Below are positions 2,344 to 64,000 of a stretch of DNA of 64,000 nt, one piece after another. How positions within the stretch are numbered: position 1 is the stretch's first letter; every line of letters starts with the position of its first letter. Made by a program: the position numbers and the translations under genes. This DNA comes from Petrosia ficiformis (taxonomy: Eukaryota; Porifera; Demospongiae; Haplosclerida; Petrosiidae): NCBI GenBank assembly GCA_947044365.1, contig OX345638.1:7387201-7451200 (forward strand), given 5' to 3'. The notes below the pieces were generated by a model that had not been told where the DNA came from, searched no databases, and saw nothing but the letters and a program-made list of their open reading frames with translations.

Positions 2344-4521
2344 TTATACTTTCTCATTAACGATTGGATCTAAATGAGCAAAAACGTTCATCCATGAACT
2401 TTTGTTAGATGGATCTTCTTTCCCAGTACCAACAGCTCCACTCATCTTTTCACCAGCATTCCTACCCTTACCCCACCTAGAAGCTCCGCCAAGTTTTGAT
2501 AGATTGGTCACTGGTACTGTTCTTGGTATAGGACCGGTATTAGTAATTGGTGTGGTTTGCATCAACGAAAGAGGCATGTTTTGTGGAAGCATGGGCGGAG
2601 GCATTGTGGGTGTGGCACTGCTTGTTTGAAAGAGAGAGGGGTCTAATCCTAGGTGTTCAAATGTATTTACAGGAGCAGGTGGAATATTTTCTGTACTGGA
2701 TGAATCATCTTGCCCCTGTAACAGGGGATCAAAAATGGGTTCAGAATTAACCACTGCTGATGAATTGCTTGTGGGTGTGGTCTCTTCGGTGTCTAGAGTA
2801 AGTAGCTCATCAATTTCTTTTTGTAAGTCTGTGATCTCTTCATTTCCTTGTAGAATTTCAGCACTCCATCCTTGATCTTCTTCCCCGTCTTTCGTAATTC
2901 CACCATCTTGTTGCGATTCTCCAATAAATTGGTCCCATTCATCAATAAGCGGATTATTCAGACCTGCCGAGGGTAACGGAAGAAGACTACCTTCCTCGTT
3001 TTCATCTGGAAGGTCTAATATTGACAACAGATTGGTTGTTTGTGCATCACTCTGTTCATCCTTTTTACTAACATTATCTTCCATTTGCTGTGACTCGATA
3101 TTATCCGATGGTTCCGGAGGTGCATCTTCCTGTTTTTGAACAGGGGAGGGTCTAGTTAATAATTCGTCCTGCAGTAGCCCAAATAAATCATCGTCTGAGT
3201 TTTTACTTTCAGTACCATGAGTTACAATATCACTGGACGGGTCTTTGTTAACTGGTACATCTTGGTTTGTGGGTGTATCACCAAGAGTTGATTCCCCAAG
3301 TTCAGAAGTGTCTTTATTTTCCAACTGAAGATCATCCACTTCTAGATCTCGTATTTCTTCTAAAAGTGTTTTTATCTTGTATTGATGTTGTGTTTGTGAC
3401 CTGTTTGAATACATAATTATGTACATATACATGTAAGATATCAGTATAACAGGACAGATATCCTACATGTAGAATATCTATATACATGTACATGTACTAT
3501 AACAGGACAGATATCCTACATGTACATATACATGTACTATAACAGGACAGATATCCTACATGTACATATACATGTACATGTACATGTAGAATATCTATAT
3601 ACATGTATACATGTACATGTACTATAACAGGACAGATATCCTATATACATGTACATGTAGAATATCTATATACATGTATACATGTACATGTACTATAACA
3701 GGACAGATATCCTACATGTAGGATATTTGTTTTAGTTAACTACAACTAAACTAAAATAATTTTAGTCAGTGACTCCAGGCACTAGTTAATTACATGTACA
3801 ACCAAAACTAAATTGTAATTCTATTACTAAATTTTGTTAAATGTTTGTTTAATTAAAAAAAAAACAAACTATAACTAGTTTTTATGGCCATGGAAAACTA
3901 GTTCAGTGTCATTTGATAAGTGTTGTGTAAATAGCAATGTACATGTACTTACTAAACTTATTCCAATCAATGATATTGTAATATCTGTTAGTCACATATT
4001 AAATAAAAATTGTTTTCACAATTAAATACTATAATTGTTAATGTAGAACTGAAATGATTCGACAGTTATAAAACTATAGGCATGTTATTTTTCAGTTGTT
4101 AATTAAAACCAAAACCATTTGTACTGACCTAACTAAAACAACATTATAAAATATCTCTATATACATGATGTTATCCGAGATGTAGAAAGAAAGAAAGAAA
4201 GAAAGACACCTGAAGCAATGGAAAAATGAAAAATGAGAGTTGCCTCAGGTGGGATTCGAACCCACGACACTCTGTACTCTGGACAGATGCTCTACCAACT
4301 GAGCTACCAAGGCAGCTCAGCTGGCAGGGTCCGAATCAAACATCTCATATGCTTAATTAATCAATTACTAAAACTATTATTATGTGAGTTGGATTTGCTA
4401 ATTAAACCCAAAGCTGAAATGGTTTGTACTGACCTAACTAAAACAACATTATAGGATATTTCTATATACATGTACATGTACATGTAGGATATCTGTATAT
4501 ACAAGATAATACTGAGATGAG

Positions 4522-4556
<35 letters not shown>

Positions 4557-7500
4557 CACCTGAGGCAAATGAAAAATGAAAAAATGAGTTGCCTCAGGTG
4601 GGATTCGAACCCACGACACTCTGCACTCCGGACAGATGCTCTTACCAACTGAGCTACCAAGGCAGCTCAGCTGGCAGGGTCCAAATCAAACATCTCACTC
4701 ATACACCTGTGTGAACAGGCTAACTAAACCGGTATACAAGCGAAGGCCGGGGTAATTAAACCACCAAGACGCCAAACACTAAACCTAAGTATATACATGT
4801 ACATTACATATTGTGTACTTGTGTACCTACACATATACAAATTGTATACAGATTATATACAAGATGTACATCACATATTGTGTACATGTACATGTACACA
4901 CACCTGTACATATGTATGTATGTATTTGTACATGTACATACACCTGTACATATGTATGTATATGTACATGTACCTACACATATACAAATTGTATACAGAT
5001 TATATACAAGATGTACATCACATATTGTGTACATGTACATGTACATACACCTGTACATACATGTATGTATGTATTTGTACATGTACATACACCTGTACAT
5101 ATGTATGTATATGTACAGGTGTATGTACATGTACATATACATACATATGTACAGATGTATGTACATGTACATATACATACACCTGTACATATGTATGTAC
5201 ATGTACATATACATACATATGTACAGGTGTATGTACATGTACATATACATACATATGTACAGGTGTATGTATATGTACATGTACATACATCTGTACATAT
5301 GTACATATGTATACAATTACAATGTACCTCAGTTCAGTCAATAGCTTATGAAAATGGTTTGCAGATAAGTCTAAGTAAGCTAACATCTCTGTCTGATAAT
5401 AAGGGAGAGTGTGAGAGAGGAGATTACTCCGGCTTGCTCCGACCATTTCTATTTTCTCTGTCAATACTCCTTTTAGTTTATCAAAGTTTTCTTTAGTGTC
5501 TTTCACATTAGCTTGTGCCTGAATTAAGATATATCAATTGTGTCCATCCATTATAATTTGTAATGGATTATGTACAAATGTATATTAATCCATCCATCTA
5601 TCCATCCATCCATCCATCCACCCATCCATTAAACATTCATCCATCCATCCACCAACCCATCCATCCATCCATCCATCATCTATTCATCCATCCATCCACC
5701 CATCCATCTATCCCTTCATCCATCCATTCACCCATCCACAAATCCATCCACCCATCCCATAAAAATCCATCCATCCATCCATCCATCATCCATCCATCCA
5801 CCCATCCACAAATCCATCCACCCATCCATCCATCCATCAAGTTTCACTAACCTCTCTGAATTTACCAAGCTGCCACTTTGAATCAGGATTACGAAACTTC
5901 TCAGAAACAGCTTTCATCCACAGAAGGGCAGCACGATAATCGGCTCTCGCTTTCTCTAATCTCCGAATCGAATCAGAAAGATCTCCCAAACCACTGCCGC
6001 AAAAGGTACTCATCTCTGATTGCAGTCGTGTTAACGGATTCACTAAACTGAATCTAAATTTAGCATTGTCCTCATGAACACTTCCTGTCCGTTTCATAAC
6101 GTCACCAGCTAATGTGAAGTCTGCCTCACCACGTGATGCAAGAAACCTTCCAAGAGACAGCTCATGAGATGAAAGTGCTGTGGATGAGTGTGTGTGTGTG
6201 TGACAAGTGAGTGTGAGAGAGTGATGGCGAGTGTGCATGTGTGTGAGTATGTGTGTATGTACATGTACATGTATTTGTGAGATCAAGAATGTGTGTGTGT
6301 GTGACAAGTGAGTGTGAGAGAATGATGGCGAGTGTGCATGTATGTGTGAGTATGTATGTGTATGTAACTATGTATTTGTGAGATCAAGAATGTGTGTGTG
6401 TGTGTGAAGATCACAATACATTCATTAACACCATTTTTGTGTCTCTAAACTACCTCTGATATGATAACAATTGCTAGTAGCAGATCGTAACAGTTGAGAA
6501 CAAGACGTTTCTAAATGACGTGCTTTCTAGATAGATACATGTAGATAGATAGAAAGATAGACACATACATACATACACATGTACATACATACATACATAT
6601 ATACATACATACATACATACATACATACATACATACACATGTACATACATACATACATATATACATACATACATACATACATACATACATACATACATAC
6701 ATACATACATACATACATACATACATACATACATACATACATACATACATACATACATTTATTTATTCATTTGTCATATTACAACAGTACAATATACATA
6801 CATACTGTACATACTGTACATGTACATACATACATACATACATACCAGGGCATAAACAAAGGTGGTAACATTCGAAGGTTCGTTATAATTCCTTACCTTC
6901 GAAGGTAGAATCCATTCCACAAAGGTTCACAATTAACACGTGGTTAATTATTTGCTGCAATAATTATTTATAACTCTTAATTAATTATTACATTTGTCAC
7001 GTGGAGATTGATAATGGCTGAGAGTGAAGAGACCATGGACGAGAGTGTGGACTTTCAAAACCAGAATGTACTGAATCTCATCTGCCATCTTCTGAATTAA
7101 GAGGTCTCCCGTTAGATAAACACTTATATAGGTACAAAGTTAACACATTCATAGTGTTACACCTTCATGAACCTTCTTGTTCTAGTTGAAACAAACCTTC
7201 GAAGGTGTAAAAATCACCTTCATTTATGCCCTGATACATACATAAATACATACATAGTTACATACATACATGTACATACATACATACATACATGTACATA
7301 CATGTACATACATACATACATACATACACACAAAAATACTATAACTATAATGCAGGCAACATGGGTAATGTAGGTGTGGCTGAACCTTAGGGTTTCTTGT
7401 CATTAGGGTTAAAATCTGAACAAAGTTGATTTTATTTTGTAGCCACACCTAATTAATTAATGTGGCGGCATTCCTGTGACGAGGCTCTCTCAACTCTCTC

Positions 7501-8090
7501 AGCTACATGTATAGCTAAAAGTAGTCTATTCTCATCATAGTACTAAAACAACCCAAATACACACTGTACCAGTGTTTTTGATAAGCTCATATGGCACACC
7601 ATTGGTCAATAGAGCTTCTTATTTGGCACTGCATAGTTCTCTCTTTGGCCCAGTGGTGCAGTGAATTATGATTATATTGTCAGTAACAGCATTAACTCTT
7701 AGTTAATTGGCTCAAGATGTATTCTCAATGGCGCACACACTAACCATTTTTGACCCAAGTTGGCCCAAGCTTCAAAAGTTATCAAAAACTCTGTACTGTA
7801 CTATAACTAAAAGTGATCATTATTGTCATATCACAACAGTACAATGAATCATTCAATACCTCTAACTTAGCATCAATATCAGCATCTCCAGCGACAATAT
7901 ATTCATCCTCGTCCTTGTGTAGTTTCTGACGGACTGTTTGTTTTGTTTTCCAGTATTTCTTCTTGAGACGATATTCCAATGTGTGGTTCTCAAGGTATCC
8001 ATCTTTCACAGATCCGTAACTATAGTGCTCATATGAATCAAAATCTGATTTCCCAAAACCCTCCATGTCAGAACTTCCAAAACCTTCCAT
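2344..8090 (-). CDS. ICA1: Islet cell autoantigen 1 (ICA69) homologue, five exons, 625 aa
   Basis: The exons on the minus strand are 8090-7860, 6526-6454, 6177-5852, 5518-5328 and 3400-2344. All introns are GT-AG and all phases match (total 1878 nt). The first four exons encode the arfaptin-homology/BAR domain. Family features include KKYWKTKQT and DADIDAKLE in exon 1, [13 protein letters not shown] in exon 3 and [10 protein letters not shown] in exon 4. Exon 5 encodes a long acidic, Pro/Ser-rich tail that ends in the ICA69 C-terminal motif [15 protein letters not shown]69 proteins bind curved Golgi and secretory-vesicle membranes, and the vertebrate protein pairs with PICK1 to control dense-core vesicle traffic. 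The start ATG at 8090 has an in-frame TAG just upstream. Exon 2 (73 bp) is the weakest piece, supported by phase and by position in the family alignment. The start is 249 bp from a divergent gene, so the two probably share a promoter region. Confidence 0.92.
3431..3725. repeat. Tandem repeat of ATAACAGGACAGATATCCTACATGTA units
   Basis: About five copies of a TATAACAGGACAGATATCCT core are separated by ACATGTACATGTA-type filler. It begins 30 bp upstream of ICA1 exon 5, inside intron 4. Confidence 0.85.
4241..4314 (-). repeat. tRNA-like head of a SINE-like element, copy 1
   Basis: The minus strand folds as a tRNA cloverleaf: a GCCTTGG/CTGAGGC acceptor stem with wobble pairs, the A box TAGCTCAGTTGG, an anticodon stem TCTGT/ACAGA and the B box GGTTCGAATCC. 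The anticodon loop is CCAGAGT, so the normally invariant U33 is C and the nominal anticodon AGA (Ser) sits on a body without a long variable arm. The downstream body ends in a CTTT-type run (GAAA at 4187-4205). The same unit recurs 350 bp away. I read it as a tRNA-derived SINE-like repeat rather than a working tRNA. Confidence 0.65.
4590..4664 (-). repeat. tRNA-like head of a SINE-like element, copy 2
   Basis: This is the same cloverleaf as at 4241-4314, with a one-base longer D loop and anticodon loop CCGGAGT (nominal GGA). The flanks are also shared: a pyrimidine-rich tail (GAAA run at 4522-4555) and an ACCTAACTAAAACAACATTATA segment further out. The repeated unit is therefore about 250 bp and not just the tRNA part. 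Confidence 0.65.
4797..5327. repeat. TACATGTA-rich satellite with a 148-bp higher-order unit
   Basis: Alternating TGTACATGTACATAC and ACCTGTACATATGTATG words fill ICA1 intron 4. The block CTACACATATACAAATTGTA occurs at about 4826 and 4974, giving a 148-bp duplication inside the simple repeat. The array abuts ICA1 exon 4. Long open frames on both strands here come from the repeat. Confidence 0.9.
5574..5838. repeat. (ATCC)n microsatellite
   Basis: Nearly pure CATC/ATCC repeat with a few interruptions fills ICA1 intron 3, ending about 14 bp from exon 3. Confidence 0.95.
6178..6412. repeat. TG-rich tandem duplication, unit of about 110 bp
   Basis: Two copies of a unit containing GACAAGTGAGTGTGAGAGA, GATGGCGAGTGTGCATG and TTTGTGAGATCAAGAATG lie next to each other in ICA1 intron 2. 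Confidence 0.85.
6550..6768. repeat. (ATAC)n microsatellite
   Basis: Nearly pure CATA/ATAC repeat, extending again at 6829-6845 and 7234-7328. The 6846-7233 MITE is inserted into this array. The poly-tyrosine/methionine/cysteine frames here are artefacts. Confidence 0.95.
6846..7233. mobile_element. hAT-type MITE (388 bp) in ICA1 intron 1
   Basis: The terminal inverted repeats are CAGGGCATAAACAAAGGTG on the left and its near complement CACCTTCATTTATGCCCTG on the right. They are followed inward by TTCGAAGG-containing repeats. ATACATAC flanks both ends as an 8-bp target duplication, although the insertion sits in an ATAC microsatellite, so that evidence is weak. The CAGGG terminus and 8-bp duplication fit hAT. 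Inside, at 7015-7100, a short frame starts [15 protein letters not shown], which may be a trapped first exon of a transposase. Confidence 0.8.
7570..7793. mobile_element. hAT-type MITE (224 bp), family A copy 1
   Basis: The ends are CAGTGTTTTTGATAA and TTATCAAAAACTCTG. The flanks CACTGTAC and TACTGTAC match at 7 of 8 bases, as expected of an 8-bp hAT target duplication. A second copy of identical length lies inverted at 44074-44297. This copy sits 66 bp downstream of ICA1 exon 1. Confidence 0.85.
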
Positions 8091-8158
8091 GTTATAGGAA
8101 GTGATTCTACAACTTGATAGATAGACTGGAATGAAAAGAAATATGTATGAAGATAGAG

Positions 8159-8193
<35 letters not shown>

Positions 8194-8339
8194 GATAACT
8201 CACTATAATTATGTACACAATGATGGGCGTGGTTTAAAATTGATTATATCGGGACGAGCTTCCGGTCGCCATGTGGGAGAGGAGTGGATACGCTAGACTA
8301 AGCTTCGCGCGTGTATACAGAAACACTTTTCCTGAAAAG
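8091..8339. promoter_or_regulatory. Shared intergenic region between divergent ICA1 and four-TM gene P1
   Basis: Only 249 bp separate the ICA1 ATG (minus) from the P1 ATG (plus). The region contains an (ATAG)n run at 8160-8192, the GC-box-like word GGGCGTGG at about 8224 and GGGACGAGCTTCCGGTCGCCATG at 8250-8272. No clear TATA box is seen. A degenerate relic of the same arrangement is found at 44530-44900. Confidence 0.55.
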
Positions 8340-9575
8340 ATGTCTCGAGATGCAGAAGCTGCTTATAGTAGAGAAGAAAATGGAGAAAACCATCGGACTG
8401 CCAAAATACAGAGTTGCTTCACCATGCACTCAACAATAACAATTCATTCTTTTAGGTTCTGGCAAAGCATAGCCATAGTAACAAGAGCAATTTTACTGGT
8501 AAAGCGACATGCTGTTTTGTATATAGATGGGTCTACTCTCTATATTTGTTTATTAATACTAGTACTCTATTAAATTCTGCAGGCTATTCTTCTGATAGTA
8601 ATTGATACTTGTGCAGCTGTTATAGACCAAAGTCACCAAACTAATCAGTTTCAGAACAGACTTACTGTAGGTGTTGAATATAAGAATTTCCAGACTGTTG
8701 CTGTGTGGGCACTGGTGTCAGCCAATGTAGGATTTATTTATGAATTGATAGTAATCATATCTACACGATTACTGAACTTTCAATGGATTAGTAAATATCG
8801 CATTCCTGCACTCACTGTGGTAAGTGATAGATTGAAGTGTGTTAATTTTTACGATAGATCTACATGTATGATATACTCACTCTACTTTGAACAGTTCAAT
8901 TTTATATACTTATATGCTTTTGAGCATTATCTATCATCTCTTCAGGATAATATTTTCAATTTGGTGTTAGCTATCTGGCTATTGGTAGTAGCCATCTACT
9001 TGGGAAATTGCGGTGCCCTTATTAAGAGTAAAAGAAATTATTTTGGTGCTAGTGATTATTTTGCTGATGCTGATGTCGGTCCACTGATACGAGTTTTAAA
9101 CGATAAACTTTCAAACACAGTAATAGCTGCTGCAGTAAGTGTGTATATAAAATTATTAGAAGTGTTGTTTTGGTTATGGGGATTACATTTTAGTTTTAAT
9201 TTACCTTGACTTTTGCTGGCACATACAAAGGTGTATGTGAACTGTTTCAAACCAAAATTATCTTCATGAAGGAAAAAATAATTATAGTTTGGTTTTATTT
9301 GTAGTAAAGATGGAATAATATTAGTTTTAGTTAATATATACTAAAATGGTGGACCTCCTTACTAAAATATGTTTTAGTTTTAGTTTTGGTATACCAAAAC
9401 AACACTACAAATTACACTAAATTTATATATTTACTCAATCTCTTTTTCAATTCAGTTTTTCACATTCTTAAGTTCTTCTGCATTCAATTTTCTCAATCTT
9501 TTGCATTGCATTCGATTTTGTCATAAATATGGAACTTTATTTACTATTCAAGTGGGATCTGAAAGACAGTTCTAG
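8340..9575 (+). CDS. Four-transmembrane protein P1 (unrecognised family, MARVEL-like topology)
   Basis: Four exons, all in phase 0: 8340-8498, 8583-8819, 8946-9134 and 9456-9575 (53+79+63+39 aa = 234 aa). The start is the ATG of MSRDAEAAY, which matches the start of P2; an upstream in-frame ATG at 8271 is possible. Hydrophobic segments lie at about 42-66 (across the exon 1/2 junction), 91-113, 134-154 and 186-214. Loops are basic between TM2 and TM3 (NFQWISKYR) and after TM4 (CIRFCHKYG), so both termini should be cytosolic. The topology resembles MARVEL or occludin-like proteins, but no family signature is certain. Other copies have a longer Ser/Asn-rich tail, seen here out of frame after 9575. 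It is the leftmost member of the paralogue cluster. Confidence 0.72.
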
Positions 9576-51336: not shown

Positions 51337-51728
51337 TGTTTTGTATTTGGGTCTATCCATCTATAAATTATATTTGTTATTATACGTGATATACTCTATT
51401 AAATTCTGTTAGCTATTTTTTTGATACTTGTGTAATTGTCATAGACCAAGCTAATCACTTTCAGAACAGACTTACTGTTGGTGTTGAATATAACACAGCA
51501 AAAACGAAGGTATGAAAACCATACCTGGCAGGTTTGAACAACATACCGTTTGGTGATCATTATGACAAGCCATAAGTGTGCACTGCATACCCTTGGAGGG
51601 TATTCATACCAGTGATGGTTAGGATATCATACCATACTAATTTTAATGATTATTAAATTCATTATTACTATTAAATAATAATTAATGAATTTAAGGTGAA
51701 TTTCCAAAAAATTAAAATATATGGTATT

Positions 51729-54700
51729 TTAAGCAAACAAAATGTGTATGCCTTTAGTGAATGAGCATAATAATGATTTACTTAATGGTAGTGGATGATA
51801 ATCTTTTAAGTCTTTTTGTCGGTATACTATGTAGTGTGTAGTGTCAGCATAAACTTCAAAAGCATTATAGTGTGTATGAAAATTAATTCCAATATACGGA
51901 ATTGAGATGAAAAGACAGTCGCTGAATTTTGTGACAATAATATCCACAATTTTTCCAAACACAGGTATTTCTTCATCAAAGGAACAAATGAGAATATTTC
52001 CTTGCTTGTAACGGATACCACTAATTTCTACATAAGATACACTGTTAAGAAAATGCATGGTAATATAATGCAGGTATGAATGGGAAATTTTCAACCTGTG
52101 CACTTCCGAATCAGGTGTAATCTCTGGGCTAAATTCCACAAGCACAGATCCATAGTCTAGAGTGCTGTTGATCGAGCTACACACAATGTATATATTATGA
52201 ATATACATGTGTATATATAGCTTGGTATTTTTAAAGATTAATATTGTAATTAACAATAAATAATTATTATTATAACATACAATCATACATCTTATATATA
52301 AGTTTATCCATCCATATCAACCTATCTATTATATGTCCAGGATATATATAAACCATTTATAATAAATATAATTAATATTTTACATGTATGTATTACAAGG
52401 TTGGTGTCTACCAAAACCCTTATACAAACTCACAAGTTCCATAGGCAGTGTTTCCACCAAGAAAATGTGTACAGCATGTCATTTTGTGACACATAGCTCT
52501 CTGGTGACGATAAGCAACTGTCTTTTCCACATTCTTGAAGTTACCAATTAACATGGCAATTTTCTTAAAATATTTGTGCTTTGTTTCATAACGCATACAC
52601 CAACAATGAGTCAATGGTCCACACCTAAACAATAACGACATTTGATTGAGATAAACTTTAGAACAAGGTCATTTCTAGTGCATTTTCAGACCACAATGAT
52701 GTAACTGTTTGAGATACTATTTTTGGAATCTAAACCCAAAATAGTTGTATTATTAACATTAAAAATACTTTTGGGCAAATTTGTGTATATAACACAGGGT
52801 TCTCGTTAGGCTTTTTTTGAAGGGTACAGAACCCTTCTTAACATGAAAAGTACCCTTCTTGAAGGCCCAAAATACCCATTGTACCCTTCTTGAACTGTAT
52901 ATTAACATACAATATTATGTAAGGTTGTTTACCGCTAGCTGTTTGAAGCTGTAGTTGATAGCCATCATAGCTTAGAGTCTTCTGACTGACATCTATCCTC
53001 GCTTTCTTTTTAGCAAGCATCTTGACATGCTGTAAATGAAACTGACGTGGTCAAACTTAGTGGGCGTGTCTCATGAATGATTAATTAATAAGCTAAAAAA
53101 TTACAGAAATTTCTGGCAAGAACCCTGATATAACACTTATTCTGAAGTATACTATATCTGTTGTTTCACAGGTGTCAGAATGGGAATGATTATGATAGTG
53201 TAAATACACCACACATTATACCTATAATAATTATTATTATGCTATATACATTGTGTTGCTGTTTTTGTTACTATGCTTTATATACTAGTCAATATAGATC
53301 AACATGAGTTGAAACAAGTACTTGTAAATATTACCTAGCAATCGCAAGAAAAGCAAATTAGCGTTACATAATAACATTACACTGAAATGAAGGTTAAAAT
53401 AACCTATTATTTTTTACAGTGTACCTTCTGATCCATGATGGAATATGTACAAGGTAGTGCATTTTCGGCACCAGTGGCCTTTCCGGATACAATCTTTGAA
53501 ACTCACTCAGGAAGACTTCAATGAGCACTTCTAAATAACAAGTCTTATCTATAGTTATAATGGGAACAAAAGTGAATTCCATGATCCTGAGAATAATCAA
53601 AAAGTTGTCCCATCTTTCATCATCCTTGGGAACCAGGTCACCAATAAGAGGTGGTAAAACCGAGAAAGGCACCATGGCTGTGTAGCTACAAGTATGATAA
53701 AAGAATCTGTTGATTATCATGTGGTATTCTTATTGAGAATCACAGTGGTAGTTAACACATATGTAAGTCACACTGAGTGACTTACACCAAGAAGGTATAA
53801 ACTCACCGGATTGTTTCAGTGTATAATCTGATGAGTTAAATGTTGACCTAGAAATTTCAGATGGTTTGTTTTGTACATCCACAGTCCCATAATTGAAGGA
53901 AGTAATCCTCTCGTTCAGATATGCCAAAGAGAAGATCTTTTGCTCTTGAATGAAATAGTGTAGCAAACACTTGAGGGTAAGTTGTGTAGTACCTTCAAGT
54001 ACATCATGACGACAACTGTTAAGAATAGAGTCATCAGTAATGCCATAGGTAGTGGCAATGTGTCCATGTAATGGCCCATCCAGATCAACAATATGGGAGG
54101 AGTGTGTAGCACGAGTACGTAATTGAAGCTCTTTCTCTGTGAACTACATGAATATGTGTAATATGAAAAACCATGTGGATATAATTGTGCTATTGTTTTA
54201 TGTTAAAATACCTTAGTTTGCATATCAGTATCTACTGCCATACAAGTACGGCATTTTCGAAACGCTGCATGAAGTGACTTATATCCTCCCATTAAACAAG
54301 CTGCTGGATTATCTGCCGAGCAAACTGTGAGTGTTCCTCTGAAATACACAACTGTTCCGTCCACTATAAATGGGACACCAGAATCCTAAATTAACAAATA
54401 AAATGAAGTTGTTTTTGTGAAAGGGAACTTACACTTTCCAGCTGGTGAATGGACTCCAATAGTGGATTGAAAATCTCATTGATCCCATACTTCTCAATAA
54501 GTGAAGTTCTGACAACTGTTAGTAGTTGTATAGTTTGAGTAGCAGATCTGAACTTGGGATTAATGTTGCCAAGAGTGTAATAGAAGAGACCTATCATAAG
54601 AAATTAAATGCTATTAAAAAATGAAAATGAAATAAAACCTATCCAACTTGTGCTTTTTAGTCTTCGAGCCTAATGCATTGCAGATCTCTAGATCATCATA

Positions 54701-55250
54701 GTATAGCCTGATCTGTAGTGCACACTGGTCCTCTTAAAAAAGTGCATGTTGTTTGAATTGTTCACCATCACAATAGTCACCCATTCTTCCTTGATTGAGC
54801 TTATGGGAGTTAAACACCTATTATGTAAACATAATTATAATAAACACAATGACATGATCAAATTTTTAAAAAAAGCAATTACCTGGTCACGGATGGAATT
54901 AATGTTTATAAGTGCCTGTAATGATTGAAGAAGTGGTATGTCATAACAACATTCATATGTTTCTCTGATCACACCACTGGCTCGCATTTTGTAACTTCTT
55001 CCCAAGACTCTCTCGACAGGAATCTATTCACGTGGACACAAATATACATCATTGTAAAACTATAACCATCTATGTCATATTATCACTAGTATCACTGTCT
55101 TAAACCCTCATAACTTGCTGGAGTAGAAGGACAGCCATCAATCCCACATGGAACTTTGCCTTCAAAATGTGGATGCACTTCTCTGATATGCCTTAAGATA
55201 CCAGACAAAGTCCTTCTAGCATGTTGGTGACAAATACAGCATTCATACAT
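51729..55250 (-). pseudogene. CACTA/EnSpm-type transposase, nine exons, three lesions
   Basis: Exons: 55250 to about 55110, 55023-54883, 54817-54643, 54590-54433, 54385-54212, 54143-53807, 53685-53425, 52624-52434 and 52176-51729. Exon 1 starts MYECCICHQHARRTLSG with zinc-finger cysteines and CGIDGCP. Family signatures follow: YYDDLEICNALGS, LFYYTLGNINPKFRS, CLMGGYKS...CRTCMA, HDVLEGTTQLTLK, NERITSFNYG, PLVPKMHYLVHIPSW, and MRYETKHKYFKK with NFKN. Lesions: an in-frame TAA in exon 3 (after QHALF), an exon 3 donor changed to ATAGGT, and a one-base shift at about 53650 in exon 7. Apart from these it is complete, so it died fairly recently. Confidence 0.88.
52795..53127. mobile_element. hAT-type MITE (333 bp) inside the transposase gene
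   Basis: Left end CAGGGTTCTCGTTAGGC, right end GGCAAGAACCCTG, with a perfect 8-bp duplication ATATAACA (52787-52794 and 53128-53135). It lies in the intron between transposase exons 7 and 8. It contains an antisense frame beginning MLAKKKARIDVSQ and repeated CCCTTCTTGAA words. Confidence 0.92.
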
Positions 55251-55416
55251 AATACACTTTTCTAATTAATGCGCTTCACTAAACGTTTGCGCGTGCGCGC
55301 TAATTGCGCGGAAAGTGGTATCAGCTGCATTCGAATTTTCACTTTTCAGTTTTTCAGTAATTTTCACACATTCAGTCATTCACATTTCACACTACGTTAG
55401 GTAGCATAGTTGAAGA
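55251..55416. promoter_or_regulatory. Divergent promoter region inside the CACTA element
   Basis: 166 bp separate the transposase ATG from the SAM-gene ATG. It includes GCGCGTGCGCGCTAATTGCGCG (about 55290-55311), a GC-rich palindromic block in otherwise AT-rich DNA, which is a likely transcription-factor site. Confidence 0.5.
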
Positions 55417-55514
55417 ATGAATTTCAAGTTAAAGAGTGTTGGAGAAGTTGGAGTCTGGCTTACAGACGAGGGTTTTAACAAAGAAGTTGTGAAAACTTTT
55501 GAAGGTGGGAAACC

Positions 55515-55700
55515 AATAGATATAATTATATATATATTTATATATATATATATATATATATATGTGTTATATATATCATGTTTCAGAGGTCTATATGCGT
55601 TATATAAACCTGCCACGAGGTAAGATATCACCCGAGGGTGATATCATCCGAGTTGGCAGGTTTATATAACGCATATACACAGATGAAACATGTTATATCT
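55515..55700. mobile_element. (TA)n and fold-back element in SAM-gene intron 1
   Basis: 55577-55691 is an inverted repeat (CATGTTTCAGAGGTCTATAT ... ATACACAGATGAAACATG) around a GATATCACCCGAGGGTGATATC centre. A (TA)n tract precedes it. Confidence 0.75.
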
Positions 55701-55917
55701 GATATATTTTAGAATGAGATTCATACCTTGGATTGTCCTGCAAGAGATTGTCATTGAGTCCGTAAGAAATCGCCATCAAGTTTCACAAGGTTGATATTTT
55801 AAAATATCAACCTATTTTGAGGTTTATATGAGAAATATAAACTTACACGCCCCATAGAAATGTATGGGCTATGAATCTCATTATGAGATATATATAATTA
55901 TATATGTAATATATATA

Positions 55918-56064
55918 GTACACTTACAGGTCTTATATACAAAAATATAGACCCGAGGTTTAGTGTCCAAGGATGTGATATAGCCCGAGCCTGCGAGGGC
56001 TATATCACATCCGAGGACACTAAACCAAGGTTTTATATTGTTTTATATAAGAACTGTAAGTGTA
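55918..56064. mobile_element. Fold-back element sharing its core with the 20175/36549 elements
   Basis: The arms start GTACACTTACAGGTCTTATA and end with the complement. The centre GGATGTGATATAGCCCGAGC/GCGAGGGCTATATCACATCC matches the fold-backs in the two duplication units. Confidence 0.82.
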
Positions 56065-56204
56065 CTATATACAATATATTGTATGCTGATAGATTAAAGA
56101 TTCACAGGTCTATATACAAAAATATAAGACCTAACCACATCAAACGGTTGCCATGGTAGCATGCTATATATAATTATATATATATATATAATTATTATAA
56201 TAAT

Positions 56205-56917
56205 AATAAAGTCACATAATTTCAGACTATTTATTCAATATAAGACTGGAGAGAAATACTCAAGAAATGAGCAGCTGCAAAATAACACTTGCTTCAAGTA
56301 GTTTCTGAAATTAGGGGTAGTCCGGTATTACGTGACTTTACTATATATAATATGTATATATTGTATTATATAATATAAAATTATATATAATTTAAACTCA
56401 ACTGCAATGTATTCTTGTAATAATAATTACAGTAAAGTCCCCTAATTTCAGACTATTTTTTCAATAGCTAAAACTCAACTATATTGTAGCCTTATAATTA
56501 TTGAAATAGTTGGGCTATAGACAAAATTTTTGTACCTACTTTTTAAGTAGGTCTTGCTGTATAAAACTATGAGTATAATTCATATGGGAGATGCAAGACA
56601 GGAGAGAAATACTCAAGAAAGGAGAATCTCCGTTTGTCCTGTAATTCCAGACATGTATACTTTTGTATATTAAATTCCGAGCAGCTGCAAAATATATGTT
56701 TAGATTACTTGTATTTAGTAGGTTTTTAACTGTTCATAAGTCTTACAAGCTTTTATAATTATAATTGGATAGTATGTCCATGAGATAGTATATGCTTTTT
56801 GCTTTCTTGTCATATGTAGAAAGTTTCCCAATTCTTTTCTTCTGTCAGTCAACTGTCAGTTTAAACTTGTCTATCAAAAGTGTCTGGAATTAGGGGTAGT
56901 CTGGTATTACGTGACTT

Positions 56918-56925
<8 letters not shown>
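56205..56925. mobile_element. Two related TIR elements, TAAAGTCAC...GTGACTTTA
   Basis: 56207-56340 starts TAAAGTCACATAATTTCAGA and ends GGTATTACGTGACTTTA. 56432-56921 starts AGTAAAGTCCCCTAATTTCAGA and ends with the same GGTATTACGTGACTTTA. Both carry GGAGAGAAATACTCAAGAAA. (TA)n tracts flank them. Confidence 0.65.
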
Positions 56926-56973
<48 letters not shown>

Positions 56974-57133
56974 CCATAGCTTACAGCCACATGAAAGTTA
57001 CCAACAGGTGTTATATACTGGAAGCCATGTTATATATATTACATATAATTATATATATGTAATGTAGTTAGGATTAATTTAACTGTGTATATGTTTATTA
57101 TATAGAAAATGACATTGATGGCGAAGCTTTTTT

Positions 57134-57528
57134 ATGGCCCGTGGGACCATCCCTATGATTGCTTTCCCACGGGTTCGAACTATATATATTTATATGTTTG
57201 TGTCACTTACGCAAGTATGCGTTGTATACGTAGTTAAGAAAGTTACGTCATTCCAGGGGGCTCGGTCAATTAATGGGCGTGGCGCGTAAAGAAACGCGCA
57301 GTCATGCACTCAAGCTCTACGCTGTGTAGCTAATGTAGAAACTAATAGCTAGCTATTCTACCTGAAATATATTCTTAAAGTTCTACAAGGTTCTTTAAAA
57401 GGTAAAGAGTAGATAATCCTATAATAGGCTGATGTGTTTCAGGCATGATAAAGTCAGCCATGATTACTGAATGCTGGACACCACAAAGCAATCGTAGGGA
57501 TGTTTTTTTTCTCTATATACACTTGTTG
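57134..57528. mobile_element. GGCCCGTAGGGCC-family element inserted in the SAM exon
   Basis: It starts TGGCCCGTGGGACCATCCC and ends CTATATACACTTGTTG, with TTAATGGGCGTGGCGCGTAAA in the middle as in the 19222 copy. It splits the SAM-domain coding sequence between EAFL and LEDGD. Confidence 0.75.
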
Positions 57529-59934
57529 TTACTTGAAGATGGAGATATTGTACAACTGATAGCATCAATTGGACCAAGAAGAAAGTTAATCGCAAAGAGG
57601 AAAACTGTAATAGATATTGAACAGAATCTTAGTTCAGAGGTGTGTAGTCATAAAAATAATTAGATTGTTTCTTACCTGGTTGGCTATACTGAGTTACATA
57701 TATGGTTATTGCTTATTTTAGTTTTGTCATCACTTCTCACAGATTAACGTCACTTACCCTGAACTTCAGCTGCCATGACTTGGTTAGTACCATATATATT
57801 ATATATCAAGTCATTTAGTACATGTAGGTTGTACATACTAAAGTATACATGTATGCATCTTTTGATTTTGACTACAATATACAGAATGAAATCGAATGTT
57901 CAAGTGATGTTGAAGATAGCTGTGAAATTCTACCAGATGACTACTGTTATGTTAATGTTTGTGCTTGTATATAAACGAAGAATCCATACATTGTACATTT
58001 GATAAAATATGACATTTAACCATAACCTTGCAGATTGATTCACTCCCTTGAACTCCGTTGAAACAAGTGAATTGCTCAGAATCAGCCGCGTGTGTAAGGA
58101 ATGAGAGTAAGATCAAAAGTGCATTCTCTCCTTGTTTACCTCGTACAATCACAAAAAGACAGCCAGAAGCTCCACTTCCGATTCCATTTGAGCTTCCTTA
58201 TAATTATCCTGCAAAAGTCATGGCGGACTTGCAGAATGGTATGCTTACTGGCAAAGGAAAAACAAAGTTTGTTTCTTCTGTAGCAGCTGCTATCTTTAGG
58301 TACAAGAGCTAGAGACCAGAGAAGAATATGACCATGTGTCTCAACAAATCATTGCCAATTATCCATTCCTCAGGTCTTCATCTGGTTCTGGATACGTAAG
58401 TTGTTCTAAGCAATAATAAATTACAACTATTCTTTTAATCAATAATGTTTTTTTTTACTTTTTGTGAATACAATAGGGCTATCTTAAGGAAGCATTACAA
58501 GATAAAATGAAGTATTTTAGAAATGCAGGAAAACCAAAGAAAGTAAAAAGTGCACTGGAGACTGAAAGTATCAGTGATGGACCACCAACTAAAAAGGCGA
58601 GAGTAGAATTTAAACAATTTCCCCAGATACAGAGTGAACCGGTTATCCCCACTGATGAAGATGATTCTTCATACCTTCGTAACCATAAAATGCTTCTACT
58701 TGAAGAGAAAAAACTAAACCCTAACAAAAAAATAGTGTCAGTTTTGATGGCAAGAACATTTGCCTTTAGAAGACAAGAAATTATGAAGTCATCTAAAGCA
58801 GTTCCCGAGATACTGAAGATGTACACATGTATCCATCATTAAAAAAATTAGATCAGGTATGTAAATTTTACATATAAGTACACATGACAAAACTTCAAAA
58901 CAAACTATTGTAACTACATGCAGCTTCAATCTGAAATGGATCACATATCCCAAAGGAGTGTGTCAAAAGAAGCATTACAAAAGTGGACAGAGTTTATACC
59001 CAAGGCTTTTCAGATTGCTGAATCAGAAGACAATCCCAATATTAATTATTTCCTGAAAGTTACATGTAATTCAGCTGAGGAGTATTCTGGAAGTGAGGAT
59101 GCACTATTCATTATACATGTACATTTGTTATGTATTTTCTAATTTTTCTGTTGACCAAAATAATAATTGATATATATTGAGTATATCTCTTAAGTTTCTT
59201 AAACTTTATTTAAGAAAAACCAGAATCCTAAAGATACAACCAGAATTAACTCTACTTATATACTAAATAAAAGACAAGTAGGCAAAATTAAATTACCCAA
59301 ATAAGGTAATATTAAACAAAAACAAATCAAAGAAGAAGATAAACAAGCTAATGAATATAATTAATAGTTCAAAGGGGTATGGTTTCCCGATTTCTTCTCT
59401 TTGGAGGCATATCCTTAGGAGTATTTCACAATTTGGTAACCCTAATCGATCTTCAGCTGGTAAGGGCTGGTGGAGAGATAACTCAGAGGTGTGTTTAACC
59501 GTACAAAGTATCAATGACATCAATGATTAAACATTGTAAACTGATGCATTCATGAACATGTAATACAACATGTTACAGTATCTTTCATTCTTTTCTATGC
59601 AGGGGCCAAGTCTCTTTTAGCTCTTGTTTTTTTGTATTATCTCCTGCCAGACACCAGAGCAAAGTCTGATCACAGTAAGGTGATCACATTTGTACAGGTG
59701 TGTGTACAGATAAAATTTGCAGCTGGTCAATGGCTACATGTATGTGGCTTAAAAATAAACATTTTGCAATACATGATAATCACTTTAAATACCTATATAG
59801 CATAGTTATCACTTTAATCAGTTTATCACAATAGCACATAAGAATTTTCACTATTACTACACTACTTGCACTATCAGTTACATGATTATAATTATATTGG
59901 TGCATCACTAATCACTCTGTTGCTATTAACTTTT

Positions 59935-61466
59935 TATGGCCCGTAGGGCCATCCCTATAATTGCTTTCCACGGGGTTTAATGTATATATAACAAGTGTTT
60001 ATAGAGAAAAAAACATCCCTATATTTGCTTTGTGATGACTATGTATTAAGCATTGCTGATGGCACTAGTGTCTCTACCTTTCTGTGTACTCCTGGGGCCT
60101 GAAGAAGTAAGTGTAAGCCTGATTGCAGTCTAAGTACACAGATCTTTGATGAACTGACTGAAGTATTCCTACTAGGTTCTAAATGATGACTTCCTCATAT
60201 CTGAAACTTAACAACTTATTATACTTACTTGTTAAAGATTCTTGCATAATATTTATACTGTTTCTCTGCTATATACAACAGTTATTAGCAGTTTCTGAAT
60301 CTTCCTGGCTTGTCTGTAGCTCGAAGAGCCCAGAACGCGCGTTCTTTTACGCGCCACGCCCATTAATTGACCGAGCTCCCCGGGAATGACGCAACTTCCT
60401 TAACTACGTATACAACGCTTAGTCGCGCAAGTGACACAAACATAATTATATATATAATTATAATTTTATATAATTATATTTATCAAACAATGTTTACCAT
60501 AGACACAACGAATCCATACATTTTCAATTAGACATTCAAATCACGCACTATGACAATATTTTCCAGTATTTTTATAGAGTCATATGACCGGAAGTTTTAT
60601 TGTATTGCGTGTCACATGCTGCTAAGTAAAAATTGTGTAGAAAGAGATTACTCTCTAATTTCTTTAGTTTTGGCGATGGTGAAGTTAGTAAACATGAGTT
60701 GTGATAAAATTATGAACGAGGTAAGTTATGTTTATGATAAAATGTGAAAGTAGAGAAGTTTATATATGTGCAGTGCTGAAAGTCTTTTTTCGGGTTGGAG
60801 GTTGCCCGAGATAGCTACTGTTTTGGGATTTAACTTGTGAAATGCTTCAAGATTACCATCTTTATCATGATAGTGTGAATAATAAAGTATTGCTAAGTAG
60901 TAATAGGCAAAAACAAGCATTATTTGATAAATATATTATATACATTAAACCCCGTGGAAAGCAATTATAGGGATGGCCCTACGGGCCATAATAATTATAT
61001 ATAATTATATATAATTATATATAAATTATGTTTGTGTCACTTGCGCGACTATGCGTTGTATACGTAGTTAAAGAAGTTGCGTCATTCCCGGGGAGCTCGG
61101 TCAATTAATGGGCGTGGCGCGTAAAAGAACGCGCGTTAGAGGCTCTTCGAGCTACAGACAAGCCAGGAAGATTCAGAAACTGCTAATAACTGTTCCATAT
61201 AGCAGAGAAACAGTATAAATATTATGCAAGAATCTTTAACAAGTAAGTATAATAAGTTGTTAAGTTTCAGATATGAGGAAATACTTCAGTCAGTTCATCA
61301 AAGATCTGTGTACTTAGACTGCAATCAGGCTTACACTTACTTCTTCAGCCCCCAGCTTTCGAGTACACAGAAAGGGAGAGACACTAGTGCCATCAGCAAT
61401 GCTTAGTACATAGTCATCACAAAGCAAATATAGGGATGTTTTTTTTCTCTATATACACTTGTTTTT
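59935..61466. mobile_element. Large inverted pair of GGCCCGTAGGGCC-family elements
   Basis: 59985-60465 and 60967-61466 are inverted copies of about 480 bp (shared: TCTGTAGCTCGAAGAG, AACAGTATAAATATTATGCAAG, ACTGCAATCAGGCTTACACT). The pair surrounds a centre of about 500 bp. It lies in an intron of the SAM gene just before its last exon. Confidence 0.8.
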
Positions 61467-62280
61467 GTTATGTAGGAGGATGCAGATGCCAGTGCTGAAG
61501 CAAAAGCACAGTTAATTCCCCAACCAATGATTATAGTTCGAGGAAAGGCAAATGATCCTAAAGATGCTTATCCTGCAACCGAAGGGCAACTTTTATGCCT
61601 GTTACCATTGGAAAAGGCACCTTATGTTCTTTTAACAGCATTTTATGCATTTAACATGCAATATACTGCTGGATGTACAAACTTCTATTCTTTTTTGGAG
61701 TATTTGTTTTTAGATTTACCTGCCCCTAAAAGAAGTAAAATACAACACTTTATCACAACTCTATTTAACATTTGCTTTAAGCTCAACCTAACAGTATTAT
61801 ACATTATAGTAAAGTTATTCTGAAATATACAGGAAATAGTAAATGTATTCTGTAGCTTTTATTTCTTATTTTAATCTTGCTTATCAAATTTTTAATCTCT
61901 TAGGTTATTTTCTAGTTTATGTATAATAAATAATTATCTAATAACACTCAATTTAAACTTTTTTTTTAATGGCACAAGTTTGAATCTTGTATAGTTGTGA
62001 GGTATGAATTACATATATACTCATAGTAAGGTATGAATTACATACTCCTAGTATGGGTATTATACCTTCAGTTGGTGTGCTCAGTGTAACATCCAGTTTC
62101 ATACCATTTATGGTATGATATTCAAACCTTTGTTTTGCTGTGAAGAGTTTCCATACTGTTGCTGTGTGGGCACTGGTGGCAGCTAATGTAAGATTCATTT
62201 ATGAATCAATATTTATCATATCTACACGATTACTCATCTTTCAATGAATGAGTAAAGGTTGCATCCCTATACTCACTGTT

Positions 62281-63061: not shown

Positions 63062-64000
63062 TTATTGTAAGTAAATTGATGGTGTATTGATATAAACAGT
63101 GGAAGTGTATAATAATAATGAAAGTACAAGTAATCTATACAATGATGACTGATATCTATTGCTATGCATAATCAAATTTTTGAATGTGTCTATACTATAT
63201 ATTGGTTTTGTTGCCAATGGATTTTGTGACAACCGATGTGGGAACAGTAGTGCTGCAATATTATCACCCTTGCTGCTTGATGGCTTGGGTAGTAAATAAA
63301 ATGCCATCCAGGTTGTGAGAAAATCGAATGCAATACAGGTTACGAGAATATTGAATCCAATGACACTTAATAATGTGAAAAACTGAATTGAAAAAGAGAA
63401 TGAATGATTATAACAATAATTATAATAATTAGACACCTACTACAGCGGCTGTTGTACATTGTTTTTGAATGTTCATCATTTTCATTTCCCAAGTTGATGG
63501 CAACTGTAAACAACCACAGAGCAGACACCACATTGAAAATAATATCCTAAAGAGATGATAATTATATAATATTTTTAAAAACTGTTGGAATTGAATGGAA
63601 AGCAGAACTGTCTATCATATGAGACCTATGTTAAGATTACACTTCAATATAAGCTTACCACTGTGAGTGCAGGAATGGGTCCAATGCGCTGACACCAGTG
63701 TGCCCATGCTGCAGCAGTCTGTGAATTTTCATATTCAACATCAACAGCAAGTCTGTCGTGAAACTCATCAGCTTTCTCAATGACAGCTGCACAAGTCCCA
63801 ATTACTATCAAAAGAATAACCTGCAGTAATAAAGTACAAACATGTACAGAGATTGATAACAAAATAGTATGTCGCTTTAGCAGCTTTACCAGTAAAACTC
63901 TTCTTGCAATAATTTCTACTAAGCCTTGCCAGAACCTAAAAGAATAAATTGCTATTGTTGAGCGTGGGATGAAGCAACTCTGTATTTTGGCAGTCAATTG
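63062..64000 (-). pseudogene. Four-transmembrane gene P7 (inverted), lacking TM2; runs off the window
   Basis: Exons on the minus strand: 64000-63890 (partial), 63820-63659, 63546-63441 and 63382 onward. Exon 1 matches the family (SCFIPRSTIAI). Exon 2 is open but 25 codons shorter than in P1: a 2-base insertion plus a deletion removes TM2 and rejoins at IPALTV in frame. Exon 3 has four extra bases near its end, so its phase no longer fits exon 4. Exon 4 keeps FFTLLSVIGFNIL and a diverged Ser-rich tail. Probably dead, although a divergent three-TM protein using another donor cannot be ruled out. Confidence 0.65.

Follow-up and report, generated by a model that had tools for sequence, protein, structure and literature searches.

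A divergent partner gene is part of the mobile unit of CACTA-type transposons in the sponge Petrosia ficiformis

A group of CACTA-type transposons in the sponge Petrosia ficiformis carries, in addition to the transposase gene (T), a partner gene (S) that is transcribed in the opposite direction and is co-mobile with it. The element described here spans positions 51494–62142 of a 64,000-nucleotide stretch of contig OX345638.1 (positions 7,387,201 to 7,451,200 of the forward strand, assembly GCA_947044365.1; G000:C3:7387201-7451200 in the numbering used below), which is referred to as the window. T is on the minus strand and S on the plus strand of the window. The genome searched comprises 191 Mb in 29 contigs. 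The window element is a defunct copy of an animal CACTA transposon with two genes, in which S probably multimerizes, binds the motif arrays at the ends of the element, and pairs the ends in the manner of TNPA of En/Spm. The analysis is computational.

T and S form one mobile unit

Matches to T, 92 rows from the best 68 of 476 candidates and 86 additional rows, were merged into 102 clusters, with the nine rows from the window entered as one. Matches to S, 121 rows of which four overlapping ones were dropped, were merged into 62 loci. Both lists are lower bounds, being either capped or based on few queries. Among the matches listed, 33 of the 62 partner loci have T within 5 kb, for a chance expectation of about 0.006 per locus. 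The two genes are positioned head-to-head in 32 of these loci, tail-to-tail in one, and on the same strand in none. The sole tail-to-tail case is a fragment, and the T 3.9 kb away is already paired head-to-head with a different partner. The matches to T and S in the head-to-head pairs are separated by 37–331 bp in 28 cases and by 97–118 bp in 14. The 62 loci are partly non-independent: a single young family contributes 12 SAM loci, and some of the others seem to have arisen by recent duplication. A smaller count, superseded by this one, included 28 loci, with 14 head-to-head, one tail-to-tail, and 13 without T within 10 kb. On the 32:1:0 orientation count, we reject both a chance neighborhood and a single trapped gene.

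Three other elements with both ends contain the two genes. E82 (C1:31076150-31082870, 6721 bp, ends CACTGTAAAAA) and E81 (C16:2332287-2342082, 9796 bp, ends CACTGTAAAAAC) include T and S head-to-head, and L080 (C1:3942507-3946868, ends CACTGTTAGA) includes both genes with part of T missing. These elements share 5'-CAC..GTG-3' terminal inverted repeats with the window element (ends CACAGCAAAA). The target-site duplications are AA (window), TG (E82), CA (L080), and ATA (E81); single duplications of 2–3 bp are short, and therefore only the agreement of all four carries weight. Subterminal motif arrays are present in all four elements: the best 6-mer in the outer 2 × 200 bases occurs 10, 12, 6, and 10 times in the window element, E81, E82, and L080, respectively, with 0.27, 0.38, 0.13, and 0.20 occurrences expected. 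In a second copy of E81 (C1:25786323-25794190, 89–97% identical), the match begins at base 1 and takes in T and the greater part of S but not the far end. This copy lacks the 1.5-kb nested insertion of E81 and has an empty site in its place. A second copy of E82 (C1:19871936) starts at base 1 of the partner-side end, preceded by an unrelated flank, and retains most of S (91–97%), with the T side missing.

The young SAM-type family includes L080, in which T is on the minus strand and an 86-residue open SAM-like exon, followed by the core of S, starts 102 bp away on the plus strand. The SAM exon has 12 matches in the genome at 98–100% identity and nine at 26–50%. A T head lies no more than 118 bp from 11 of the 12 close matches, and five of the nine distant ones have T head-to-head within 5 kb. 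In a DNA search with L080, of which the best 40 of 2754 candidates were scored so that copy counts are lower bounds, most rows are 96–100% identical. The family has at least 15 two-ended copies including L080, counting C2:14311234 and C6:4078426, in which the partner-side match ends 33 bases short. The SAM exon is full in ten of these copies and partial in two. L083, a longer copy, has open exons for the SAM segment, the core, the basic RDRFKFLRR stretch, and the C-terminal domain, and terminates in TCTAACAGTG, the complement of the terminal inverted repeat. S of E82 matches L083 in the core (E 3e-8) and the C-terminal exon (E 0.009); the middle exons of L083 have been identified in part.

Both genes lie between the ends of the elements, recur head-to-head at dozens of sites, and are co-mobile. 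S thus belongs to the mobile unit and is not a passenger. This bears out the initial annotation, which had assigned a SAM-domain gene to the mobile unit and proposed a genome-wide search for divergent pairs.

Other repeats adjoin or interrupt these elements. At positions 7683–9172 of E81 (L081 7970–9460), a short element is inserted into another short element; the outer has at least ten further copies at 91–93% and the inner at least 27 at 92–100%. A tandem array of approximately 58-bp units is located near the transposase-side end of E81 (442–1159; L081 728–1445). A hAT-like transposase reading frame, read from the translation, adjoins the truncated E82 copy (L057/L066, C1:19874600-19875600).

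Organization of the window element

The repeat CACAGCAAAA has only two matches in the window, which face inward (0.25 expected; 2 shuffles reach 2). They are flanked by a 2-bp AA duplication of the target site (TATAA/CACAG on the left, CTGTG/AAGAG on the right). All eight window matches of GGTATGAA fall within the element, with 3.0 expected, and GGTATG occurs ten times across the outer 160 + 160 bases (shuffle mean 0.12, maximum 2, 5000 shuffles). The two ends and the subterminal repeats reported in the initial annotation are therefore confirmed.

Features of the element are as follows; limits marked "approx." are approximate.
51492–51493, no strand: left copy of the AA target-site duplication
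51494–51503, plus: left terminal inverted repeat CACAGCAAAA (left 147 bases recur, 87%)
51494–51653, no strand: left subterminal GGTATG array (motif counts)
51745–52165 (approx.), minus: T, C-terminal exon (genome match G000:C3:7438971-7439489)
52474–52625 (approx.), minus: T exon with RYETKH, last acidic residue (T alignment)
53418–53690 (approx.), minus: T exon with H(3)H motif HYLVH (T alignment)
53805–54143 (approx.), minus: T exon with HDVLEG, 13 residues absent directly before the motif (T alignment)
54206–54385 (approx.), minus: T exon with C(2)C motif CRTC (T alignment)
54430–54600 (approx.), minus: T exon LFYYTLGN..
54636–54825 (approx.), minus: T exon with YYDD and in-frame TAA
54883–55023 (approx.), minus: T exon IPVERV..
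55095–55250, minus: T exon 1, Cys/His-rich head
55251–55416, no strand: gap between start codons, putative shared divergent promoter (T–S distances in the head-to-head pairs)
55417–55521, plus: S, first half of SAM-like domain (SAM_3 E 0.0048 alone, 0.00055 joined to second half)
57523–57639, plus: S, second half of SAM-like domain (SAM_3 score of joined halves)
58107–58400, plus: S, conserved core (PLPIPFELP..YPFL), frameshift near 58303 (partner alignment)
58477–58862, plus: S, block B (KMKYFR.., FxxRR..), frameshift near 58830 (partner alignment)
58921–59060, plus: S exon QLQSEMDHIS.. (genome search with S)
59603–59697, plus: S exon LLPDTRAKSD (aligned with other partners)
59924–61466, no strand: nested foldback repeat in the last S intron, foreign to the original element (arms 94–99% complementary)
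61476–61823, plus: S, last exon AFYAFNMQYTAGCTNFYSFLE (partner alignment)
61983–62142, no strand: right subterminal GGTATG array (motif counts)
62133–62142, minus: right terminal inverted repeat (last 58 bases recur, 89%)
62143–62144, no strand: right copy of the AA target-site duplication (flank comparison)

The left 147 bases of the element have one further copy (C1:3948220-3948377, 87%), and the last 58 bases have a further copy at C13:4209952-4210012 (89%). The locus C1:29467240-29468090 contains pieces of T and S that are each 86% identical to those of the window. The window family looks old and low in copy number. L080 adjoins, and apparently sits inside, a copy of this family (C1:3946869-3948377): beyond the partner-side end of L080 follow window-family bases 169–605 and the left end of the window family.

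T is composed of approximately nine exons, from 55250 down to about 51745. Its motifs YYDD, C(2)C (CRTC), HDxLEG, H(3)H (HYLVH), and RYExKH align with those in T of E81, E82, and locus L023. The same alignment gives the order D, D, C(2)C, H(3)H, E of putative catalytic residues (YYDD/YYDE, C(2)C, HYxxH, R(Y/F)ExK); the D preceding C(2)C is not conserved in L023. The CMC/CMCT clade, which includes EnSpm, Mirage, Chapaev, and Transib, is characterized by C(2)C and H(3-4)H motifs, by 5'-CA..TG-3' ends, and by target-site duplications of 2–5 bp (PMC12730594). The motif set of the window T corresponds to this signature. Matches to Pfam families are weak: Transposase_21 (tnp2) is the best match of L023 (E 0.016, 14.8 of 28.6 bits) and does not match the E81 T model, and DUF4218 matches the window T with E 0.026 and L023 with E 0.14. 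The transposase had been annotated as nearly complete; however, its YYDD exon contains an in-frame TAA near 54.7 kb, and relative to E81 it lacks two pieces, one of about 150 residues following exon 1 and one of 13 residues ahead of HDVLEG.

At L022 and L023, a single open frame (606 and 637 residues) covers most of a transposase of this type; no partner match is located near either among the matches listed in the genome-wide pairing count. A sequence at L041 (C1:15544432-15544586) is 97% identical to T exon 1 of the window, ends at the exon limits, and lies within a 148-residue open frame. It may reflect exon capture, a related element, or a processed copy.

S begins at 55417, and the start codons of T and S are 166 bases apart. 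A repeat-bearing stretch of about 2 kb splits its SAM segment into halves; pieces of the foldback repeat are also present between them, at 57129–57540. A segment at about 59390–59480, included in earlier S queries, is absent from all other partners and probably does not encode protein. In the genome search with S, the first 74 residues were matched at the window locus alone, and the SAM exons of the old window family are therefore known from one copy. Given the in-frame stop and the two deletions in T, and the two frameshifts and the repeat split in S, the window copy is dead.

Elsewhere in the window are two tRNA-Ser genes (4239–4664; anticodons AGA and GGA, about 270 bases apart) and a tandem repeat with a 27-bp unit in 2.3 copies (63300–63361).

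Architecture and conservation of S

S has an exchangeable N-terminal module, behind which come a conserved helical core, a basic stretch resembling RFKxFRR, and a C-terminal domain that is also conserved. The N-terminal module is SAM-like in at least two lineages and a beta-grasp of the PB1/ubiquitin type in others, whereas the remainder of the protein is shared. The predicted ββ-α-βββ fold of the beta-grasp class matches solved beta-grasp domains, with a predicted local distance difference test score mostly above 90. Its best Foldseek match is the PB1-like N-terminal domain of Par-3 (E 1.3e-3), with SUMO, UBX, and ubiquitin-like domains close behind.

A protein search provided one match with a single-sequence query and six with an alignment query. 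One of these is a protein of Amphimedon queenslandica, which has the same order of beta-grasp, core, and block B. Its best match in the genome of P. ficiformis is 54% identical over 93 residues. Searches for relatives elsewhere found 64 pattern stretches in bacterial and archaeal genomes and 78 in viral contigs, of which none was confirmed, and none in plasmids (query P0001).

The order of the genes is constant across families in which the cores of S are only 23–64% identical. At seven loci, the identities of T heads and S cores are correlated (r 0.60, exact Mantel permutation p 0.018); some of these peptides were assembled by visual inspection to bridge introns or frameshifts. When S exons of different copies were compared, six comparisons gave 12 synonymous and 20 non-synonymous differences (pN/pS 0.44, p 0.027); two of the comparisons share a reference exon, and therefore not all are independent.

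Possible role of S

T would act as a DDE transposase, transcribed opposite to S from a common gap that is often near 100 bp. S may form multimers through its SAM or PB1-like module and could coat the family-specific subterminal arrays at both ends, either directly or through T. In this way it would pair the ends for cleavage, a role comparable to that of TNPA of En/Spm; common ancestry with TNPA is not implied. SAM and PB1-like modules are typical self-association domains. A swap between self-association modules of unrelated fold is as expected if assembly itself is the function. By analogy, modules of this type suggest a multimerizing end-binding partner like TNPA.

Several observations weigh against this reading. 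Among the matches listed, no T lies within 5 kb of 29 of the 62 partner loci, and no partner match accompanies 70 of the 102 T clusters. Elements with T only may exist. At two of the loci counted as lacking T (C1:6909960 and C1:7358072), local tblastn detects pieces of T on the other strand. The initial annotation took copies without the SAM gene as a sign of chance trapping, and the young family includes both kinds: 12 of its 15 two-ended copies keep the SAM exon, and three lack it (C1:17986745, C2:11132394, and C6:4078426). These three also lack part of T, as in deletion derivatives, but C6:4078426 retains most of it. The divergent exons of S that had been annotated as a SAM gene are present, whereas their identification as SAM comes from Pfam scores below the cut-off (SAM_3, E 0.00055–0.0012, 19.2–20.3 of 22.6 bits). 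Searches of two SAM segments against PDB chains using phmmer gave no significant match (best E 0.32 and 0.28, the latter to 2dkz, a SAM structure), and the search with profile A1 gave one chain at E 0.5. A low-confidence model of the SAM segment of L080, read through an intron, has no Foldseek match with E below 1, a result to which little meaning can be attached. None of the matches of the beta-grasp model reaches E 0.001. Since beta-grasp folds include ubiquitin, the fold alone does not imply self-association. The core has no recognized fold, and therefore the argument for DNA binding by S consists of basic residues and analogy. Finally, pN exceeds pS in one of the six exon comparisons.

A less probable alternative, to be taken seriously, is that S is an element-encoded regulator, an anti-silencing factor or autorepressor, which keeps the element expressed and acts outside the cutting complex. 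TNPA reactivates the methylated promoter and represses the unmethylated one (PMC1636069). Such control would suit a shared divergent promoter, and the Cys/His-rich head of T may enable T to bind the ends by itself. However, an end-binding factor would account equally well or better for the co-divergence of T and S and for the motif arrays at the two ends. It is unlikely that S is a structural or targeting factor whose SAM or PB1-like module directs, for example, insertion or localization. Modules of the SAM and PB1/DIX types frequently take part in scaffolds, and module swapping suggests that assembly matters rather than one particular partner, but nothing ties S to localization. That S originated as a host gene captured on one or a few occasions, and travels as a mere passenger, is very improbable: CACTA elements are known to pick up genes, and the order of SAM and core may resemble that of vertebrate SAMD3, yet S is head-to-head with T in 32 loci with cores as divergent between families as noted above, its pN/pS is reduced, and most young copies retain the SAM exon.

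Vertebrate SAMD3 is a single-copy host gene with an N-terminal SAM domain followed by a core and a basic stretch in similar order. It is possible, if rather doubtful, that animal CACTA elements have long had a dedicated second gene whose product polymerizes on subterminal repeats by way of an interchangeable head-to-tail module of SAM or PB1-like type, and that the many SAMD3-like genes in animal annotations, perhaps including vertebrate SAMD3, are copies or domesticated descendants of it. If S is the multimerizing partner proposed here, unnamed or SAMD3-like genes of sponges, and perhaps of other animals, would become transposon genes, and S would be a case of SAM and PB1-like modules replacing each other within one protein.

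Comparison with known systems

En/Spm has CAC..GTG ends and subterminal motif arrays. The sponge elements are similar to it in their transposase, putatively of tnp2 type, two proteins, CAC..GTG ends, and motif arrays. By contrast, TNPA and TNPD of En/Spm are produced from one alternatively spliced unit, whereas T and S are two divergent genes. To our knowledge, SAM and beta-grasp modules have not been described for TNPA. The products of tnpA and tnpD of maize En/Spm are both essential, and TNPD stabilizes TNPA on DNA (PMC1636069).

SmTRC1, of the TRC elements, serves as the reference for animal CACTA transposons. It encodes a transposase and also non-transposase products, which were proposed to act like TNPA; SmTRC-PrA and SmTRC-PrB are products of alternative splicing with no detectable relatives in other animals (PMC1636069). 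The elements of P. ficiformis resemble SmTRC1 as animal CACTA transposons encoding a transposase and a further protein. Unlike in SmTRC1, the partner here has its own divergent gene and is conserved both between families and in a protein of another sponge. With the CMC/CMCT clade, the elements of P. ficiformis share the C(2)C and H(3-4)H motifs as well as 5'-CA..TG-3' ends and target-site duplications of 2–5 bp; the extra gene described for that clade is a TET/JBP dioxygenase in fungi, which differs from S (PMC12730594). No paper on a SAM- or PB1-bearing CACTA partner was found in the literature searched, which left out Repbase and most subscription journals.

The identity of the second protein of animal CACTA transposons has been an open question since SmTRC1 (PMC1636069). 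It becomes testable with a conserved partner that is encoded head-to-head with the transposase and has an exchangeable, putatively self-associating module.

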